NCBI GenBank assembly: GCA_013314775.1
Contig: JABUFB010000012.1
Location: 62,001 to 126,000, forward strand
Source: Armatimonadota bacterium
GTDB taxonomy: Bacteria > Armatimonadota > Zipacnadia > Zipacnadales > JABUFB01
DNA length: 64,000 nucleotides
Direction: 5' to 3'
The number at the start of each line of letters is the position of its first letter. Position 1 is the stretch's first letter. Position numbers and translations under genes: made by a program. This document shows positions 46,501 to 59,721 of the stretch, in pieces. The notes below the pieces were generated by a model, which saw nothing but the letters and a program-made list of their open reading frames with translations, was not told where the DNA came from and made no database searches.

Positions 46501-46569
46501 TCGCCCGAGGTCCCCTTGCTTGCTGCGCCGAAATGTGTACCACTCTCCGCCCTGGAAGGTGGTGCGCCC

Positions 46570-49500
46570 GTGTCTGCCCTTTCGCTGTTCGCGCTCCTGC
46601 TCGCCGCGCTGTCCCCTTGTTTCGCGCAGTCCCCGGGCAGTCCTCTGCAGCCCCTGGAACCGGATGAAAACACCTGCGTCCTTTACCACTTCGACGAGGG
46701 CGAAGGCGCGGTCCTGCACGATGCCAGCCCGCATGGGAACCACGCCGAGTTGCGCGGGCCCCAGTGGTCGCCGGGGAAGTTCGGCAGCGCGCTGTGGTTC
46801 GACGGCGAGGATGACTGCGTGTTCCGCGAGGTGCCGGAGTCGATCCGAGATCTGAGGCAAATTACTGTGGAGTGCTGGGCGAACCAGGAGCACACGTCGG
46901 GACGGCGGTTCATGGCGGGGCAGGACGTGGGCTTCCACTTCGAACTGGACGACGGTTCAGGCGCCTCGATCTCCCTGTACAACAAGGGCGGCGGAGTGCC
47001 CAATGCGGAGGGCAAACCCCACCAGCAGGTAGCCTCGCAGGTGGGCAGTCTACGGCCCGGGCGCTGGCACCATGTGGCGATTACCTACGATGGGAAGATG
47101 GTGAGCTTCTTCATCAACGGGGTGCTCAAAGCCCGGCATCCCGGCCCGTCGGACTTCTCGCTGGGCGCTCCCTCGCGGGGCCTGTGGCTTGGATGCTATG
47201 TGGGGATGGATTACTGGTTCAGCGGCCTGCTGGACGAGTTCCGGGTCTCCAACTGCGTGCGCTATGACCCCGATAACAAGCTTACAATCGGTGAGAAGGT
47301 GTTTGAGATGCCGGAAGCCGCCGTGCAACTGGTTCGTCCTGCGGCCGCTTTGCGGGAGCCGAAACGCACCGGAGAGGCCACCCTCCGCATGACTCTGCGG
47401 AAGCGCTATGGGGGAAATGCTTCCGGGTGGGTCTACCTAAAGCCGCCGGCGAAGCCCGCGGTGGTTGTGGGCGAGTATGCGCTGAAGAACCTCGCAGACG
47501 GCGCTGAGACTTCGTTGGACATCGACGTGACTGACGAGTTCGCGGGCGATGGCCGATACATCCTTGGACTTGAGCAGGTGGACACCGGGGGGTACTTCGC
47601 ACTAAAGCAAGCAACTCTCAGCGCCAAGGGCGCACCAGTTGCATCCTGGGAGGGCGAGGTGCAGTCACGCCGCACCTTCGGTCCGCCGGTGCTAGCGATT
47701 CTCGGTGTGGGCGCGGATCGCGCGCCGAACTCGGGACGCATCGTGCTTCTGCCCGGCAACGTGGACCGCGTGCAGGGCGCACCGGAGATCGATGCATCTC
47801 GTGCCGACCAGCCGCCCTGCATCGTGGGCGAGGGGCACGTGGAGTGGTGGTTCGACGTGCCAGCGCGGTCGGCATACCGCGTCTATATGCGCTACGCCAG
47901 CTCGGGGTTCCGCCCGTGTGACATCGTGGTGGATGGCGTCGATGTGCACCCCTACCACATGGGCGCGCGCAACAGCACAGGACGCACCATGGCGCAGGAT
48001 GCCTTCTGGGAATACCAGGGAACGGTCACCCTTGATCCGGGCCCACATTGGCTGCGGGTCCAGAATTTCCTGCCGGACATGGTGGCGCTGCGGCTTGATC
48101 CCGTGGCGCAAGTCGGTCCGGCGCGGGTGCCGTGGAACAGGTTCCCGGTGCCCGCGGGAGACTTCCTTTGCAGGGCTTCGGACTGGGACGCACGGGCTGA
48201 TTTCGGAAAGCCGGAGGAACCGTCGGCGAGGCTGGGTCAATCAGGAGATACTTGTGAGTTGCGCTTCGCGACGCGGTTCACCAACACGAATGAAGAAGAT
48301 CTCTTCGCAGGGGACGCCGTGCGCTTCGTTCATGACTGCGCATGGGATCTGGAACCCTTCGGCAGGGTGAGTTTCGAGTTTCGCGGGCAGGGCAGAGGGC
48401 ACGTGGTCTCCCTGTGGCTGATAGACGCCAAGGGCGACGAAAAGCTGTTGTGGCGCAGGCGCGACAACTCAGCCGCCCCACAACAGGTGAACGTCCCCCT
48501 GTCCTTCGAGGGCAACACGGTGTTCGACCCCGGCCGCGTGTCGGCGGTCTGCGTAGTGCTGGACGAGGGCAATATGCGGGCGGAAGAGGTGAACGATTTC
48601 GCGTGCGCGATCATTGCTCCGAAGTTCGAGCGTCGAGATATCATCGCCACACCCGAAGGCTATGCGGCGGCTGTTCTGGCGGCGCGGGAGATGCTGCCTG
48701 ACGTGCCCGCGAGGGGCGCCACGCTGCTTGCTCCGGGATTCCACCCCTGGACGCAGCCTGTTGTGCCCGAAGAGCACCCGCTGTTTGCGATCACCGAGCC
48801 GAAGCCGGTAACACGGGGTGTCCTGGGTTACGATCTGCATTTCACCGGGGCACGTGATATCTCTGCCCCAGCGCTCGACGATTTTCACACCCACTATGAC
48901 TTCGGCGACATCTGCTGGCCGCACATCGGCATATTACCTCAACGCCGGAATTACGCGGACGACGCGGCGTACGCGAAGGCGCTCGGGGACATGGAAGAGC
49001 GGCTGCGCGAGGTGAACCGCCGAAATCTGATCCTGTGGGACATCTGGGGCTATGTGCCCTTCGGCGAAGCAGGCCCGACGCCGCGAGTTGAGCCCGAGCA
49101 CCACCAGGCCCTGCTGCGGGTGTTCGGCGACCGCTTCCTGGGGTACGACAATGGGGAGCAGGACGGACGGTACATCGGGGCCTACGCGGACCGTGGCCCG
49201 CACACCAACCGAAAGGAAGGCTGGGAGGATTTCGTGCGGTGGGACGAGGGCATCTGCAATGACAGCATGAACTTCATGAACGCCACCGGGTCCCTCAACT
49301 TTTCCCATTACTACGGGGAACGCGGCGCGCGCACCCTGGGCCTTGAGACCGCGCAAGGACTCCCCAGCGACACTCTTATGTTCGCGTTCCTGCGCGGCGC
49401 CGGCAAGCAGTACGGTCGGCTTCTGACCCAGGCCACCTCGATCTGGAACCGCTACGGCTACAACATGTACCACGACCGACGCAATGAGAACCCCGGCGGG

Positions 49501-50382
49501 TATGGGCTCGGCCCCAACAAGGGCTGTTCCCTCAGCCTGCACCGGCGCCTGTTCTTCCAGAGCTACTCCGGCGGCGACAGCATCGTGGGCACCGAGACCT
49601 CCCAGTTCACCGCCGACCGCCTGGAAAGCGGGGCGCCGGAACTCAGCCCCCTGGGTGCCCAGCACCTGGCCATCAAGCGATGGGTCGAGGAACACCCGGA
49701 CCGGGGCGTCATGTACACTCCGGTGGCCTTCATGCTGGACTTCTACAACGGCTGGAACATGCCGCGCCACCTCTACCGGGGCGACAAGTACAAGATCTGG
49801 GGCAAGCTGCCGTACGAAAAGGGCGACTACCTTATCGACGGCATGTTCCGGATGGTCTGGCCCGGTTACGAGGACTGCAGTTATCTGCGCAGTGAGCGCG
49901 GCTTCATCACCCCCACACCCTTCGGCGACATCTTTGACGTGCTGAACAACCGCTGCCATCAGGACATCATCCAGCAGTATCAGGCGATCATGCTCCTGGG
50001 TGACGTGGAACTGACGCCTGAGATCACCGCGAAGCTCCGGGCCTTCGTGGAGGCCGGCGGGGACCTGATCACCGACGCGAAGCACGCGCGGCAGTTGCCC
50101 GAGGAACTCACCGGGGTGACTTGCGGCGACGAGCGTAGAGGGGTTCTGTCCAGGCGCACGGACACCGGCGAGGTGTTCGACGAGCACCCCTATACCTACA
50201 GCGTCTTGACGCTCAACGGTGCACAGGCGCTGCTGGTGAATGAGCGGGGGCACGGGTTGGTGACGGTGAACGCGGCAGGTCAGGGCCGGGTGATTGTGGG
50301 CGCGGCGGACTACTGGATGACCGACAGGCTGAATTATGCCGCGCCGGAACTGGTGAACATGGAGCACCTTACACGCTGCTGA
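46570..50382 (+). CDS. Very large secreted LamG-containing protein, interrupted by a frameshift
   Basis: A secreted protein of about 1270 residues before a stop at 50380-50382. GTG 46570 is chosen because GGAAGGTGG lies just upstream and a signal peptide begins there (SALSLFALLLAALSPCFAQ); a TTG at 46516 is in frame. Residues 40-235 form a LamG domain (VLYHFDEGEG, LRPGRWHHVAITYDGKMVSF, GLLDEFRVSN). Beta-sandwich domains follow to about 720. The region from about 770 to 1200 is a barrel-like module with RRNLILWDIWGYVPFGE, CNDSMNFMNATGSLNFSHYY, MYTPVAFMLDFYNGWN and a terminal glutamine-amidotransferase-like segment with LRAFVEAGGDLI. I cannot name its GH family. The stop comes from one missing base near 50367 (see the following entry). 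It lies 69 bases after the beta-lactamase-fold gene. Confidence 0.65.
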   Translation: MSALSLFALLLAALSPCFAQSPGSPLQPLEPDENTCVLYHFDEGEGAVLHDASPHGNHAELRGPQWSPGKFGSALWFDGEDDCVFREVPESIRDLRQITVECWANQEHTSGRRFMAGQDVGFHFELDDGSGASISLYNKGGGVPNAEGKPHQQVASQVGSLRPGRWHHVAITYDGKMVSFFINGVLKARHPGPSDFSLGAPSRGLWLGCYVGMDYWFSGLLDEFRVSNCVRYDPDNKLTIGEKVFEMPEAAVQLVRPAAALREPKRTGEATLRMTLRKRYGGNASGWVYLKPPAKPAVVVGEYALKNLADGAETSLDIDVTDEFAGDGRYILGLEQVDTGGYFALKQATLSAKGAPVASWEGEVQSRRTFGPPVLAILGVGADRAPNSGRIVLLPGNVDRVQGAPEIDASRADQPPCIVGEGHVEWWFDVPARSAYRVYMRYASSGFRPCDIVVDGVDVHPYHMGARNSTGRTMAQDAFWEYQGTVTLDPGPHWLRVQNFLPDMVALRLDPVAQVGPARVPWNRFPVPAGDFLCRASDWDARADFGKPEEPSARLGQSGDTCELRFATRFTNTNEEDLFAGDAVRFVHDCAWDLEPFGRVSFEFRGQGRGHVVSLWLIDAKGDEKLLWRRRDNSAAPQQVNVPLSFEGNTVFDPGRVSAVCVVLDEGNMRAEEVNDFACAIIAPKFERRDIIATPEGYAAAVLAAREMLPDVPARGATLLAPGFHPWTQPVVPEEHPLFAITEPKPVTRGVLGYDLHFTGARDISAPALDDFHTHYDFGDICWPHIGILPQRRNYADDAAYAKALGDMEERLREVNRRNLILWDIWGYVPFGEAGPTPRVEPEHHQALLRVFGDRFLGYDNGEQDGRYIGAYADRGPHTNRKEGWEDFVRWDEGICNDSMNFMNATGSLNFSHYYGERGARTLGLETAQGLPSDTLMFAFLRGAGKQYGRLLTQATSIWNRYGYNMYHDRRNENPGGYGLGPNKGCSLSLHRRLFFQSYSGGDSIVGTETSQFTADRLESGAPELSPLGAQHLAIKRWVEEHPDRGVMYTPVAFMLDFYNGWNMPRHLYRGDKYKIWGKLPYEKGDYLIDGMFRMVWPGYEDCSYLRSERGFITPTPFGDIFDVLNNRCHQDIIQQYQAIMLLGDVELTPEITAKLRAFVEAGGDLITDAKHARQLPEELTGVTCGDERRGVLSRRTDTGEVFDEHPYTYSVLTLNGAQALLVNERGHGLVTVNAAGQGRVIVGAADYWMTDRLNYAAPELVNMEHLTRC

Positions 50383-50814: not shown

Positions 50815-52773
50815 CTACTTCATCTGCGGCAGGATGATCCCGCGCAGAATGATCTTCTGGCAGAACAGGAAGACCAGTAGCACCGGGATTGAGTTCACGA
50901 TGAAGGAGGCCATCACCACGTATGGCGCTCCTGCAAGCGTCTGCGAGAACTGGTAGGTCCACACTGCGATGGTCCAGATCTTCGGGTCCTGGGCCACGAT
51001 GATCGCCCACTCCCACCCATTGTACGCCGCGATGAAGGCGTTCAGCATCCCCACCGCCAGGATCGGTTTGACCAGCGGCAATGAGACCCGGATGAAGATG
51101 AGCCATTCGGGCGCACCGTCGATAGTCGCCGCCTCGTACAGCTCCTGGGGCAGCGAGTCGAAAAACCCCTTGAGCAGAAAGATAGTCATGCCGTTTGCTG
51201 CACCGGGGAGCACCAGGGCGGCGAAGGTGTTGAGCAAGCCGAGGTCGCGCAGAAGCAGGAAGCCGGGGATCGCTGCGACCGCTGCCGGGAAGGCCATGGT
51301 TGCAAGGCAGAAGATGATGATCTTATCTGACCCACGCAGGCGGAACCGGCTCAGGGCATACGCCGCAAGCGGGTTGACGGTAAGCGCGATGAAGACCGCC
51401 AGGCAGACCAGAATCACCGTGTTGCGCACCGCGAGGCCACGGTGGATAAGGTAGTCGATGACCGCCATGTAGTTACCGAAAAGGTTGTCGAGCAGGAAGG
51501 ACCTTTGCTTGTTGTCGAAGGTGACCAGCAGGGCTTGTCCGAAGGGAATGCCGAGCTGCTCAATTGAGGTGAGGTTCAGCCCGTAGGCGGCGTTGATCGC
51601 CGCCAAGCTGCCGTGGCGCTTGAGTGCGAATTTCTGGAAGGCTTGCTCGGGCAGGGTGTCGCGGATGCGCCACTGCTCCACGGGGATGTTGGTGCGCAGG
51701 AAGTCCATCCAGACCCGGCCCAGGGGGCCGTTGGGGACGGTTGGCGTGAGCTTGATGTCCTCCCACTTCGAGACCGGGTCCCAGGTCTGCCCGGTCCCGG
51801 CCAGGACGCGGTTCAGGTAGTCAATGCTGGGGAACCGGTCCTGCAAGAACTTCTGGAACTTCGCCTGTCTGCCGGCAACGCTAATCTCAACGTGACGCAG
51901 AGGGAAGTCGGTCATCAGGAACTGCCGCCACATCGCCACTTGCTCCGCCGGCGCGTCATCAGGCACCGGGAACGGCAAGGCGGCCAGTTGCTCGGGCGTA
52001 AGCGTTTCGTCCTGTTTCGCGACGTAGTCCTCCCAGATGAACCGCAGCGCTGCCGGCCTCAGGTAACCCGCGTATGCGCCTTCACCCTTGAGATATGGGG
52101 TGAAGCGGTTGTCGCGGTAGGCTTTGCGGAACTCCAGCAGGTCCTCGTAGCGCACGTCGAGTTCCGGCGTGTAACTGGCCTGGTCGATGGGCTCGCCGCT
52201 CCATTCGCTGGCGTTCACCTTGGCAAAGTCGTCGATGGACATCTGCCAGGCCTTGTTCAGGTTCTCCAGGGTCTTGTAGCGCGCGCGCAGGAAAGGCGCG
52301 ACATACCGGTTGTCATAGGCCAGGATCGTCTCGCGCAGGTCCCACGTCTCCATGAACTCCGCGTAGTCTCGCGCCGCTGCCTCAAGTTGCTCGCGCTGCT
52401 CAGGATCCTTGAGACGGACAAGCTGCTTCGCGGCCCACGCGTCACTGTTCTCGTGGTCATCGCCGATCTGGCTCCATATGGTCCAGTCCGCGGGCAGGTC
52501 CGGAAAATACGCGCGTACCTGGCGCAATGATGCCCTGTGGGCCGGTGGGAAGTAGGCGCACAGCATGTGCATGAAGCGGTCTTCGACCGACCACAGGTAC
52601 CGGGGCATGGGGTCGCGGCGGTCGTAGTCGAAGCCATTGCTGACCGACCCTGTGAGCATGACCATGAAGGGGTAGACCATGGTTATGCCGCCGATGATCA
52701 AGGCGATGTAAATGCCCATGATCACTGCGCGACCCTTGGGTGTCTTGCGGTCGATATCGTTGATAATTGGCAC
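50815..52773 (-). CDS. MalG-type sugar ABC permease with a large repeat-bearing insertion
   Basis: A 652-residue inner-membrane permease, against about 280 in ordinary MalG-type subunits. TM1 is residues 18-41. The remaining helices start near 447 and carry the EAA loop EAATIDGAPEWLIFIRVSLP (547-566), which docks the ATPase. Between them, about 44-430 is an added, mainly helical region that should face outward. It holds three related units: 138-187 (YAEFMETWDL, FLRARYKTLENLNKAW), 282-337 (WRQFLMTDFP, FLQDRFPSIDYLNRV), and 355-407 (WMDFLRTNIP, FALKRHGSLAAINAAYG). The FLxxRYxSLxxLNxAW pattern is also common in GH42-like glycosidase barrels. It lies three bases after the fused binding-protein/permease gene, so the two form one operon. 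No ATPase gene is in the window; a shared one elsewhere, MsmX-like, is inferred. Confidence 0.85.
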   Translation of the reverse strand: MPIINDIDRKTPKGRAVIMGIYIALIIGGITMVYPFMVMLTGSVSNGFDYDRRDPMPRYLWSVEDRFMHMLCAYFPPAHRASLRQVRAYFPDLPADWTIWSQIGDDHENSDAWAAKQLVRLKDPEQREQLEAAARDYAEFMETWDLRETILAYDNRYVAPFLRARYKTLENLNKAWQMSIDDFAKVNASEWSGEPIDQASYTPELDVRYEDLLEFRKAYRDNRFTPYLKGEGAYAGYLRPAALRFIWEDYVAKQDETLTPEQLAALPFPVPDDAPAEQVAMWRQFLMTDFPLRHVEISVAGRQAKFQKFLQDRFPSIDYLNRVLAGTGQTWDPVSKWEDIKLTPTVPNGPLGRVWMDFLRTNIPVEQWRIRDTLPEQAFQKFALKRHGSLAAINAAYGLNLTSIEQLGIPFGQALLVTFDNKQRSFLLDNLFGNYMAVIDYLIHRGLAVRNTVILVCLAVFIALTVNPLAAYALSRFRLRGSDKIIIFCLATMAFPAAVAAIPGFLLLRDLGLLNTFAALVLPGAANGMTIFLLKGFFDSLPQELYEAATIDGAPEWLIFIRVSLPLVKPILAVGMLNAFIAAYNGWEWAIIVAQDPKIWTIAVWTYQFSQTLAGAPYVVMASFIVNSIPVLLVFLFCQKIILRGIILPQMK

Positions 52774-52776
52774 TCG

Positions 52777-55452
52777 TCAGTCGTCTCCCCTCGCCTGGCG
52801 GAAGTCCACCCGGCGCAGGATGCGAAGCTGCATGTAGGTGAAACCGATAAGGATGCTGCCGAGAATCCAGGCGTACGAGGTGGCCAGCGAAAAACGCATG
52901 TTCACGTACGCCTCCTGCCAGATCGCCATCCCCATGACCATGGTCTCCTTGCCCGGCCCGCCGAAGGTGAGCAGGAAGATGGAGCCCATGGACTGGAACG
53001 TGGCGATGAAAGCCCCCACGAAATTGATGAGCACCAGCGGGGAGATGGTCGGGATGGTGATATGTCGGATGCGGCCGAGGATTGTGGCGCCGTCGAGACT
53101 GGACGCCTCGTAGAGCTCCTCTGGCACGGACTTGAGCGCCGCCAGGTAGATCAGACTGCTGATGCCAGCCGACGCCCAGACGCTGGGGATGATGACGCAG
53201 GCCATGACCGTGTGCGGGTTGCCCAGCCAGTCCACCGGAGGCAGGTCCCACAGGCCGAGTATCGGCGCGAGGACTCGGTTGATCGTGCCCTGCGCAGTCC
53301 CGGCGTACATTTCCTTCCACATAAGAGTGACGACCAGACCCGAGGTCATCTGCGGCAGAAAGAACAGTGTACGGAAGAAGACCTTGAACCGCGGCACCTC
53401 AGTCAGCAGGAACGCCAGGATGATCGGGGTGCAGAACGCCAGGCCAAGGTTCCACAGGACGAAACGGAACGTGGTCAGCAGGTAGTGGTAGAAGTTGGGG
53501 TCAAGCGCGATACTGATGAAATTGCTCAGTCCAACGAACGGCGAATGCCCGACCACCTTGTAGTCCTGGAAAGCCATGACAAGACCACGGGCCAGGGGGT
53601 AGTAGCCCCACAACGCAATGGACGCCAGCGCGGGCAGGAGCATCAACCACGGCAACCAACCCGTATACACGCCCGCCCTGCTCTCCGTCTTGCGTAACTG
53701 GTCGCGCACGATGAGCACGGTGAAAAACGCGAAGAACAGGGCAATGAACCCGGCGATGATCCGCGCCTTCGGGCGGTACTTATCAAGCACTTCGCGAGGG
53801 CGCTCGAACATGATCCCTGTATTCGCGTCGCGCTCCAGGTTTTTCAGGGCGGTCTTGTAGTCGAAGTCCTTCCCGCTTGGGCGCAGGACCAGATCAATGA
53901 TCTCGCGCTGGTAGAAGTCCCGGAATTGAAGCCACTTGCCCATGAAGGGCTCCACGACCTCCAGGATTTCGCCGTTCTCGATCTGCTTCCACATCCGCAG
54001 GTTCTCGGGTGGAATCTCCCGCAGGTAATCCTGAAAGCCGAGACGCTCCAGGTCGCGGGGGTTGAGAAACTTGGCCTGCCCGGCAGCCACCTTGCGGCGG
54101 ATCTCCTCGTCGGAGCCCTCGGGACTGCAGATGCGCCGCATCATCTCCCAGACCAGGTCGCGGTAGGCCTTCCTGTCCTTCTCGGAATGACCGCCGCGGC
54201 GCAGGACGTCCTTGCCGATCATGAAAAAGCTATTGGATGCCTGCAGCACCGGGCGCAACTTGTCGTTCATCGCGGGGAAGGGCATCATGCCCAGGTCATC
54301 CGGCGGGATGCCCAGGTTCTGGAACTCCGTCATGTCCCCCGCCCAGAGCGGGTACATGGCAAGGTCTCGGCCCAGTCGCTTGAGGGTTTCCAGCAGGTTG
54401 GTGGTAGTGACGCCGATGCATCCTTCGATCACGTCGTCTTTCGCGAAGGTCACCCGGCGGCCCTGGAACATGACGAAACCGTTGTCCACATCCTGCTGTG
54501 TCAACTCCACGGGCTCCCCGGATGCCTTGTCCAGAATCCACGGAGCCCAGCGCAGGCGGTGGTAGAAAGCCACGGCGGCGGTGCATTCGGGGCTGGCCAC
54601 ATTGCAGCGCCATTTGGGCTTGGCGGTGGATACATCGTGTCCCTTACTGCAGGTCAGGTCGGTCTCCTGCTCATTGAGGGTAACTATCTCTCCGCAGGTG
54701 GGGCACTTGCGGTCCTGGACGACGATGCTCGAGCCTGTCGTGGCCACCCACGGCGCGAACGCCCAGCTCTGCGAGGTTAGCTCCAGGCCGAAGGTTTTCT
54801 TGACCGGGTCATACAGGAGTCGCACCCAGCGAATGAACTCGTCATAGGTCTTTGGCGGGTTCATCGGATCGAGACCGGCCTTGCGAAGGAGGGTCTTGCT
54901 GTAGAGAATGCCCACGTATGTTCCGCCGCGATTGGGCAAGGCATAGGGCTTGCCGTCCACCGTGACAACCTGGCGGTACAAGGGCTTGATGTTCGCCCAT
55001 TCCGGCCACTTGCTCTCGTCCAAGTCGATAAGGCCGTTGAGATCGGGCTTGCCGTCCTTACCGAGCTTTGGCTTTCCGTTGGCGAGAACCCCGTCTTCGC
55101 CGATCCATTCTACGAGCGGGTATGCAAGACGCTGCTCAACGGCCTGACGTATGTCGGTTTCGAAGATATCCGGACCGATGTTCGCGGCCATAGCCATGGC
55201 CAGGCTTGCCCGGGCGCCCTCGGCGGGCATGCGGATGCCGTCCCACTGCACCAGACGCACATTGGGGTGCTCCGCGAGGAAGTCCCGGATGATCTTGGGC
55301 TGGCGATTCTGGGCGTTGTACCGGGAGGTGACGGAGATTGGGAAGACAGTGTCCTGCGGGCCGGGTTCGCATGACGCGGGACGCAAGGCGCAGAAATTGG
55401 AGATAAGAAGCGCGAGTACGGGCAGACAGCGTCGCAGGCCCAACCTGATCAT
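52777..55452 (-). CDS. Solute-binding protein fused to a MalF-type ABC permease, with zinc-ribbon-like insert
   Basis: An 891-residue two-part protein. A signal sequence (about 1-28) is followed by a family 1 extracellular solute-binding domain (about 35-555) with QPKIIRDFLAEHPNVRLV, PYALPNRGGTYVGILYSK and NPPKTYDEFIRWVR. A linking helix at 565-583 crosses the membrane. It leads into a MalF-type permease core (about 598-875) with the EAA loop ELYEASSLDGATILGRIRHI near 779-798. The binding domain carries an insertion with Cys250, Cys253, Cys268 and His272 (CPTCG and CSKGH knuckles), and also Cys283 and Cys290, a zinc-ribbon-like arrangement. It is the first gene of a two-gene operon. The fusion tethers the binding protein to its channel. 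The ATG at 55452 has only a tightly spaced AAAGG, so a downstream TTG remains possible. Confidence 0.85.
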   Translation of the reverse strand: MIRLGLRRCLPVLALLISNFCALRPASCEPGPQDTVFPISVTSRYNAQNRQPKIIRDFLAEHPNVRLVQWDGIRMPAEGARASLAMAMAANIGPDIFETDIRQAVEQRLAYPLVEWIGEDGVLANGKPKLGKDGKPDLNGLIDLDESKWPEWANIKPLYRQVVTVDGKPYALPNRGGTYVGILYSKTLLRKAGLDPMNPPKTYDEFIRWVRLLYDPVKKTFGLELTSQSWAFAPWVATTGSSIVVQDRKCPTCGEIVTLNEQETDLTCSKGHDVSTAKPKWRCNVASPECTAAVAFYHRLRWAPWILDKASGEPVELTQQDVDNGFVMFQGRRVTFAKDDVIEGCIGVTTTNLLETLKRLGRDLAMYPLWAGDMTEFQNLGIPPDDLGMMPFPAMNDKLRPVLQASNSFFMIGKDVLRRGGHSEKDRKAYRDLVWEMMRRICSPEGSDEEIRRKVAAGQAKFLNPRDLERLGFQDYLREIPPENLRMWKQIENGEILEVVEPFMGKWLQFRDFYQREIIDLVLRPSGKDFDYKTALKNLERDANTGIMFERPREVLDKYRPKARIIAGFIALFFAFFTVLIVRDQLRKTESRAGVYTGWLPWLMLLPALASIALWGYYPLARGLVMAFQDYKVVGHSPFVGLSNFISIALDPNFYHYLLTTFRFVLWNLGLAFCTPIILAFLLTEVPRFKVFFRTLFFLPQMTSGLVVTLMWKEMYAGTAQGTINRVLAPILGLWDLPPVDWLGNPHTVMACVIIPSVWASAGISSLIYLAALKSVPEELYEASSLDGATILGRIRHITIPTISPLVLINFVGAFIATFQSMGSIFLLTFGGPGKETMVMGMAIWQEAYVNMRFSLATSYAWILGSILIGFTYMQLRILRRVDFRQARGDD

Positions 55453-58138: not shown

Positions 58139-58714
58139 TCAACCGTCCGCATCGTGGGCGAACTCCTGGGACGCGTTTGCGACGATCCCTCCGTTCACGC
58201 CCACAACCCAGACGGGGATGGTGACCGCCATCTTCGCGTGTGGCAACTCGCGGACCACTCGCTCAAAGTACACGACGTTTTCATCGATCTGACGTGCGCT
58301 GCACTGCATGGGAACGATTAGCACACCTATCTCAATGTCGTCGGCTGCGTACGAGAGAAGGAACTTGAAGATATCCGTGTACCACCGTGCCATGTTGCCG
58401 AACTGGACCTCGATCTGGATCGGACCCTTCTTGAAGTCCGCGACCAGTCGCGATTCAGACTGTGACACTATGCGTGGATGCCGCTCCCAGCCTCTCTGCT
58501 CAAACTCTCGGTCGAACTCGCGGTTAGTGGCAGCCTGGTTGATGCTAAGCATGGCGACCTGTCTACCGTCACGAACGCGCGGAGTGGGGCCTTTTGGGGA
58601 TGCTTGCCACTGGACGGTGGCGATGACGTCAGTTATCTCCTGCATCTCCTGCGCGAACTCGTGCAGAAGGATCGCTTCGGCGTGCCTGTAGCTATAGGTG
58701 GCGGCAACCTTCAT
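58139..58714 (-). CDS. Type II restriction endonuclease, BglII/BstYI family
   Basis: A 191-residue endonuclease. The active site shows Asp93, then eight residues, then Glu102-Val-Gln104 in IEVQFGN, the same D-x8-E-x-Q spacing as in BglII (Asp84, Glu93, Gln95). MARWYTDIFKFLLSY after it matches the family's dimer and DNA-contact helix. BstYI/BglII enzymes cut RGATCY or AGATCT; the exact site here is not readable from the sequence. Its ATG overlaps the methylase stop as ATGA (58711-58714), so translation is coupled and the methylase comes first, as expected for safe establishment. The pair stands out from the sugar genes on both sides and was probably acquired by transfer. Confidence 0.85.
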   Translation of the reverse strand: MKVAATYSYRHAEAILLHEFAQEMQEITDVIATVQWQASPKGPTPRVRDGRQVAMLSINQAATNREFDREFEQRGWERHPRIVSQSESRLVADFKKGPIQIEVQFGNMARWYTDIFKFLLSYAADDIEIGVLIVPMQCSARQIDENVVYFERVVRELPHAKMAVTIPVWVVGVNGGIVANASQEFAHDADG

Positions 58715-59610
58715 CGGTCGTGCCCCCCGTTGGGCAGAGACGGGTTGTACACCGGCATGTCGAGTGGGCGGTACGGGACTGTGCCCGCAATCGCCTCCGC
58801 TATTCGCTGCCGCGCAATCTCCAAGTACTCCGCGACTGTATCGGCGCCAGCTGCTCTCCGCCCACGCATTACGGCGGCAACTGCGGACGTACCAGCACCG
58901 AGATAGGGGTCCACCACGAGATCACCCGGCCTTGTCAGGCTCAGAACCAGACGCTCAACAAGCGCAATCGGATACTGGCACGGGTGTGCGGTCTTCTCGC
59001 GATGGTTCGCCTTGACGTTAGGGATGATCCAGAGATCGCCAGGGTTCTTACCTTTGGGGTTGCAGGAGAGGGCCCCGGCTTTCGGGCCCTTGAAGTGCTT
59101 CTTCGACTGGTATTTCTGGGGAACGCGCACGGCATCCAAATCGAAGTAGTAGGCGTCTGACTTCGTGAACCAAAGGATGACCTCGTACCTGCCCGAGAAG
59201 CGCTTCGTGCAATGAAGACCGTGCTCGAAATGCCAGACCACGCGGTTCCGCAGCTTCAGCCCATGCTGCACAAACGTTGGGTACAGCAGAATGTCGAGTG
59301 GCGCGATCTCGCCGTTCTCAACGTAGTTGCCAACTTGCCAGCAGATGCTCCCGTCTTCCGCGCAGATGCGGACCGCTTCCGCGATAGTCCGAGACTGCAT
59401 CTCAATGTACGCGTCGACTGAGTTTTTCCGTTCGTACTCCTTGCCAAGGTTGTAAGGCGGGGACGTGACAATGAGGGAAGCCGCCCCATCGGGTATCTGT
59501 CCAAGTAGCGCCAGGCAGTCACCATGGTATAGCGTCACCGTAGCGTCGTGACGGTACTCCGATGAGACCTGCAGTTCGTGCGCTGCCAGTCGCAGCGTCT
59601 CAGACGGCAT
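58711..59610 (-). CDS. Type II DNA methyltransferase paired with the BglII-like enzyme
   Basis: A 299-residue amino-methyltransferase. Motif IV is TSPPYNLG (residues 49-56) and motif I is VVDPYLGAGTSAVAAVM near 240, so the order is IV before I, as in beta-class enzymes. The middle carries target-recognition candidates such as HCTKRFSGRYEVILWFTK. The likely product is N4-methylcytosine, since M.BglII-type partners use that base, but N6-adenine cannot be excluded. ATG 59610 follows a GGAGGGGG ribosome site; an in-frame ATG at 59679 is weaker. It precedes and overlaps the endonuclease gene by four bases. Confidence 0.85.
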   Translation of the reverse strand: MPSETLRLAAHELQVSSEYRHDATVTLYHGDCLALLGQIPDGAASLIVTSPPYNLGKEYERKNSVDAYIEMQSRTIAEAVRICAEDGSICWQVGNYVENGEIAPLDILLYPTFVQHGLKLRNRVVWHFEHGLHCTKRFSGRYEVILWFTKSDAYYFDLDAVRVPQKYQSKKHFKGPKAGALSCNPKGKNPGDLWIIPNVKANHREKTAHPCQYPIALVERLVLSLTRPGDLVVDPYLGAGTSAVAAVMRGRRAAGADTVAEYLEIARQRIAEAIAGTVPYRPLDMPVYNPSLPNGGHDR

Positions 59611-59721
59611 TGGGCTTCCCCCTCCTTCTTCGTGCGTCTCGTGGCCCAGAAGGTACCATGGGCCGCGACGTCTTGTCAAACAGGCGTTCCACAGGTTCTG
59701 TGCGCCAATGCACGGGCGGGA

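Follow-up and report, generated by a model that had tools for sequence, protein, structure and literature searches.

Mostly ligand-less zinc-ribbon modules in a tethered CUT1-like receptor/permease subunit and a probable regain of ligands in one clade

The window analysed here is a stretch of 64,000 nucleotides of contig JABUFB010000012.1 from an Armatimonadota bacterium, and the features discussed below are listed in Table 1. The fused protein showed in a single chain of 891 residues both a SBP_bac_1 match (PF01547, residues 54-240, E 6.7e-12, 46.4 bits for a gathering score of 26) and a BPD_transp_1 match (PF00528, residues 678-878, E 2.5e-12, 47.4 bits). PF01547 above its gathering score places it among the family 1 solute-binding proteins. 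The BPD_transp_1 match, the similarity to MalF/UgpA (UgpA match E 4.5e-27, below the equivalog cut-off) and the motif ELYEASSLDGA...ITIPTISP, which from established knowledge of ABC importers we take to be the EAA loop, make its permease a CUT1-type one. With an export signal, a binding domain, an anchor helix and a permease in one chain, the protein falls among the tethered-receptor ABC importers. This architecture was already described in the original prediction, made from the sequence of the window, and Pfam, the open reading frame and the sequence agree on it; the numbering given there for C250, C253, C268, H272 and C283 was also found correct when checked with the codons.

Table 1 Features of the fused protein and of its partner permease in the window.
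Feature	Positions	Strand	Description	Basis
Fused solute-binding protein and MalF/UgpA-type permease	52777..55452	-	891 aa, ATG start	ORF and Pfam
N-terminal signal peptide	55369..55452	-	residues 1-28	basic n-region and hydrophobic core in sequence; AF2 helix 2-22
Family 1 solute-binding domain	53773..55344	-	residues ~37-560	Pfam PF01547; Foldseek on low-confidence model
Site A ribbon insert	54610..54714	-	residues 247-281, CPTCG...CSKGH (C250, C253, C268, H272)	alignment, profile comparison
Site B, degenerate second ribbon	54418..54543	-	residues 304-345 (DKASGEPVEL...QGRRVTF)	aligned to complete L068/L117 ribbons
Anchor helix, binding domain to permease	53707..53763	-	residues 564-582	hydrophobic stretch; AF2 helix 560-585
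MalF/UgpA-type permease domain	52789..53661	-	residues 598-888	Pfam and UgpA similarity
EAA coupling loop (ELYEASSLDGA...ITIPTISP)	53038..53118	-	residues 779-805	read in sequence
Partner permease, MalG/UgpE type	50815..52773	-	652 aa, GTG start; 3 bases downstream of fusion	own EAA loop
Partner insert between first and second membrane helices	51454..52647	-	~400 residues (43-440)	predicted mostly helical

The anchor helix is directly followed by RDQLRK and, by the topology predicted from the sequence, the binding domain, site A included, is extracytoplasmic. The AF2 model of the full protein, obtained from an input of 14 sequences, had a mean pLDDT of 48 overall and of about 63-75 across site A. 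The best Foldseek matches of this model were family 1 sugar-binding proteins, with low TM-scores.

The partner permease is a regular companion of the fusion, a homologue following it at 13 of the 14 loci checked on genome contigs (L037 being the unmatched one). No other conserved neighbour was found at the compared loci, and no ATPase was found among the neighbouring genes examined. The insert of the partner, modelled as mostly helical with a pLDDT mostly of 65-94, aligns also in ribbon-free relatives, and Foldseek on the partner permease matched nothing below E 0.001. Recurring F..ry.sle.LN.aW-like stretches were seen in this insert, together with a weak GH42 match (PF02449, E 0.00046, under the cut-off). 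Elsewhere in the window, Laminin_G_3 is the only Pfam family matched in a 1288-aa protein beside the transporter genes (46516-50382, plus strand), and a BglII-like restriction endonuclease lies beside an N6/N4 DNA methylase at 58139-59679 (minus strand), likely as a restriction-modification pair.

Matches to the fusion with E <= 1e-70 were found in 133 of 291 Armatimonadota genomes and, in a sample of 387 genomes of the phylum to which a Victivallales locus belongs (G292; Lentisphaerota group), in 59. The fusion and its insert are more than a chance event, since the fusion occurs uninterrupted, with 66-86% identity, in many genomes of the Armatimonadota and Lentisphaerota and since two of its homologs, L068 and L117, bear complete four-cysteine ribbons at the position of the insert. 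The genome of the window itself (6.1 Mb) codes for two further fusions, one each on C4 and C12. The fused paralogs L003 and L004 of this genome have long extra inserts, partly hydrophobic, in the permease domain at about residue 730 of P0001. Two other loci, L118 and L125, have binding-domain frames of 535 and 519 aa that are related to the fusion and have no permease in the same frame, and may be unfused, broken or cut.

We then consider the cysteines of site A. The ribbon-like pattern CPxCG...CxxGH is present as had been noted, with a spacing of C-x2-C-x14-C-x3-H in the window clade and an aspartate for the third cysteine in one species; in place of the standard CxxC...CxxC set, the window protein has CxxC...CxxxH. 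In the close ortholog clade, C283, which the original prediction had counted in the pattern, persists in 17 of 18 proteins whatever the state of the ribbon and is part of a conserved WRCN motif; on this alignment it is therefore not a ribbon ligand. A C283-C290 disulfide was considered and is unsupported, some orthologs keeping only one of the two cysteines. A survey of homologs had been set beforehand as a refuting check on the conservation of the ligands, and here the claim failed: in the same clade C250 is kept in 4/18, C253 in 3/18, C268 in 2/18 and H272 in 3/18, and C250, C253 and H272 occur jointly in three proteins only, those of the window, of L006 (with Asp at 268) and of L035. Most close orthologs have SPTTGKxYTFNEQxTxxxAPDTGEDL at site A, in which the cysteines are replaced by Ser, Thr, Asp or Ala and the Pro/Gly turns are kept; L049 has one of the two cysteines of the first knuckle (CPTTG). 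A metal-dependent function thus cannot, on this survey, be general for the fused family, because so few members of the clade keep the CxxC and the histidine. The zinc-ribbon models of Pfam gave weak matches on this segment of the window protein, none reaching its cut-off; the best curated one was PF01599, with 15.6 bits for a cut-off of 22.3 (E 0.015).

Homologs from other branches showed what the module looks like when complete. L068 (Lentisphaerae) carries CASCN...CPTC at site A and, at a second place called site B, CAHCGEPVEL...CPFC. L117, 61% identical over the binding domain, has CPRCG...CKQC and CPKCGEP...CPRC, with all eight cysteines kept. Inside the inserts the identity of L068 and L117 is as low as 42% at site A and 41% at site B, and the persistence of eight cysteines despite this divergence suggests selection. 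Site B had been overlooked in the window protein, which retains no knuckle cysteine there. The L018 group has CPYDG or CPVDG...C.CRKC at site A and several CxxC pairs at site B, and L003, L111, L112, L030 and L102 have cysteine knuckles at site B only. In L018, L019, L021, L022, L023 and L054, several CxxC-rich stretches extend over both sites, with up to about 12 extracytoplasmic knuckle cysteines.

The cysteine-less forms were compared with the ligand-bearing ones by profile-profile alignment, the ligand-bearing set for site A being L068, L117 and the L018 group. Site A gave a score of 32.5, as against a mean of 7.2 and a maximum of 14.6 in 200 column shuffles, and site B a score of 31.2 (shuffles: mean 8.2, maximum 14.2). 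The compared segments extend by a few residues into the flanking binding domain, which raises the scores somewhat. Homology of both sites to zinc ribbons with intact knuckles is well supported by these sequence comparisons, for site A because complete ribbons stand in the same place in L068 and L117 and because the profile score is far above the shuffles. Solute-binding domains were expected to be normally free of such a module; the fused family is an exception, with inserts of this kind at two sites. Both positions are plain loops in solved sugar-binding proteins such as 5ci5, site A being the hairpin turn after a conserved GG strand and site B the loop after the following helix. Judging from this connectivity, the modules at A and B may be neighbours at the same edge of the domain.

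How the window clade came to its ligands was examined on trees. In the tree built without the insert columns, L001, L006 and L035 (the window clade) formed a clade with support 100/100, nested in ligand-less relatives, and parsimony on that tree gave two changes at residue 253 and one at 272. When unfused permeases served as the root of a larger tree, the window clade again fell deep within the ligand-less group, many deep branches of that tree being long and uncertain. In the window clade the second knuckle is one residue shorter, and the histidine stands one position on from the fourth cysteine of the complete ribbons. The nesting of the clade and this shifted fourth ligand after a one-residue deletion favour regain over retention, and the ligand set CC(C/D)H was probably regained, as judged from three distinct sequences, one of them with Asp at 268.

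The cysteines and the histidine might instead have arisen by drift in a relaxed loop that is functionless and metal-free in the window clade. Site A identity within this clade is 46-74%, as against 87-89% for the binding domain outside site A, and its pairs are mostly lower than the ligand-less pairs (69-78%), which fits relaxed constraint as well; that 15 of the 18 close-clade proteins have no ligand set and that no zinc-ribbon Pfam match on the segment is significant point in the same direction. Drift, however, would have had to return C250 and C253 at the exact ribbon positions jointly with a histidine on the knuckle side, and to let them persist in three species; L035 has all four ligands, yet shares only 54% identity with the window protein over site A. 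We regard this explanation as doubtful. A second possibility is that the ligands are ancestral, kept in the window clade and lost independently in many sister lineages. The true ribbons of other branches (L068/L117, the L018 group and the L003 group) and the single first-knuckle cysteine retained by L049 agree with it. The earliest ribbon of the family may have been metal-bearing, the order of the deep branches being unsure. Retention down to the window clade, however, needs many parallel losses that all end in the same SPTTG...PDTGED, and it leaves the window protein with a displaced histidine where a CxxC would be expected. Retention seems to us unlikely for these reasons.

CxxC pairs can be redox-active, and the CPTC of the window, lying by topology outside the membrane, might be a disulfide or a redox pair and not a metal site. 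This has little probability, as the homologous positions are CxxC...CxxC ribbons in relatives and as DsbA, DsbB, VKOR and Thioredoxin_4 gave no match in the genome of the window, each search being positive in control genomes. With no match to these four, reduced extracytoplasmic cysteines are plausible. The window protein might plausibly bind zinc. A metal-sensing switch, in which docking or transport would be gated by whether site A is occupied by metal, is suggested by the place of the site on the receptor part of a tethered importer. It is very improbable, since close orthologs have the full architecture without the ligands, so that the importer needs no such switch.

The reading that we prefer, to which we give a probability of about two in three, is that of a tethered CUT1-like receptor/permease subunit whose mostly ligand-less ribbon modules have a structural or docking role, the site A ligands having been regained in the window clade. 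The binding protein would be tethered by one anchor helix to the MalF-type half of a carbohydrate-type (CUT1-like) ABC importer; short loops A and B of its binding domain each bear a module homologous to zinc ribbons. The ribbons probably stiffen an outer edge of this domain and favour its docking onto the permease pair, whose MalG half has the large, predicted helical extracytoplasmic insert. In most of the family this role would be independent of metal; in the window clade, metal ligands reappear at site A, most likely by regain. That the ribbon has there become a working metal site again, in a new CCCH arrangement outside a tethered importer, with the metal holding or regulating docking, is a tentative extension that we hold to be rather improbable. 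In this family one module occurs, always at one place of one protein, with four, three or no metal ligands, a probable regain included, and this natural series makes it possible to test directly how a metal site is lost and regained. A widespread tethered importer of the sugar type, whose MalG partner is enlarged, is described here as well.

Our literature searches, which were not exhaustive, found no zinc ribbon in a solute-binding protein and no earlier description of a tethered importer with an enlarged MalG partner, of its combination with ribbons or of the probable regain. The system shares with the MalFGK2 and UgpABCE (CUT1) importers the homology of its permeases to MalF/UgpA and MalG/UgpE, the EAA loops and the family 1 binding domain. 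It differs from them in the fusion of the binding protein to the MalF half, in the ribbon inserts and in the insert of about 400 residues in the MalG half. Covalent linkage of binding domain and membrane domain is also found, according to the parts of the reports consulted, in GlnPQ, which has tandem tethered binding domains (PMC8025302), and in OpuA, in which the receptor is tethered through an anchoring helix and a short linker (PMC11065425). These two are importers of amino acids or compatible solutes, and zinc-ribbon inserts are not mentioned for them in those parts (PMC8025302, PMC11065425). A precedent for the loss of ligands on a kept scaffold is given by Cren7/Sul7, zinc ribbons that have lost the chelating cysteines and retained the scaffold, with relatives that have the ligands (PMC5906684). 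Cren7 and Sul7 are archaeal chromatin proteins, whereas the ribbons described here are inserts of a receptor that is exported, with an apparent regain of ligands in one clade.
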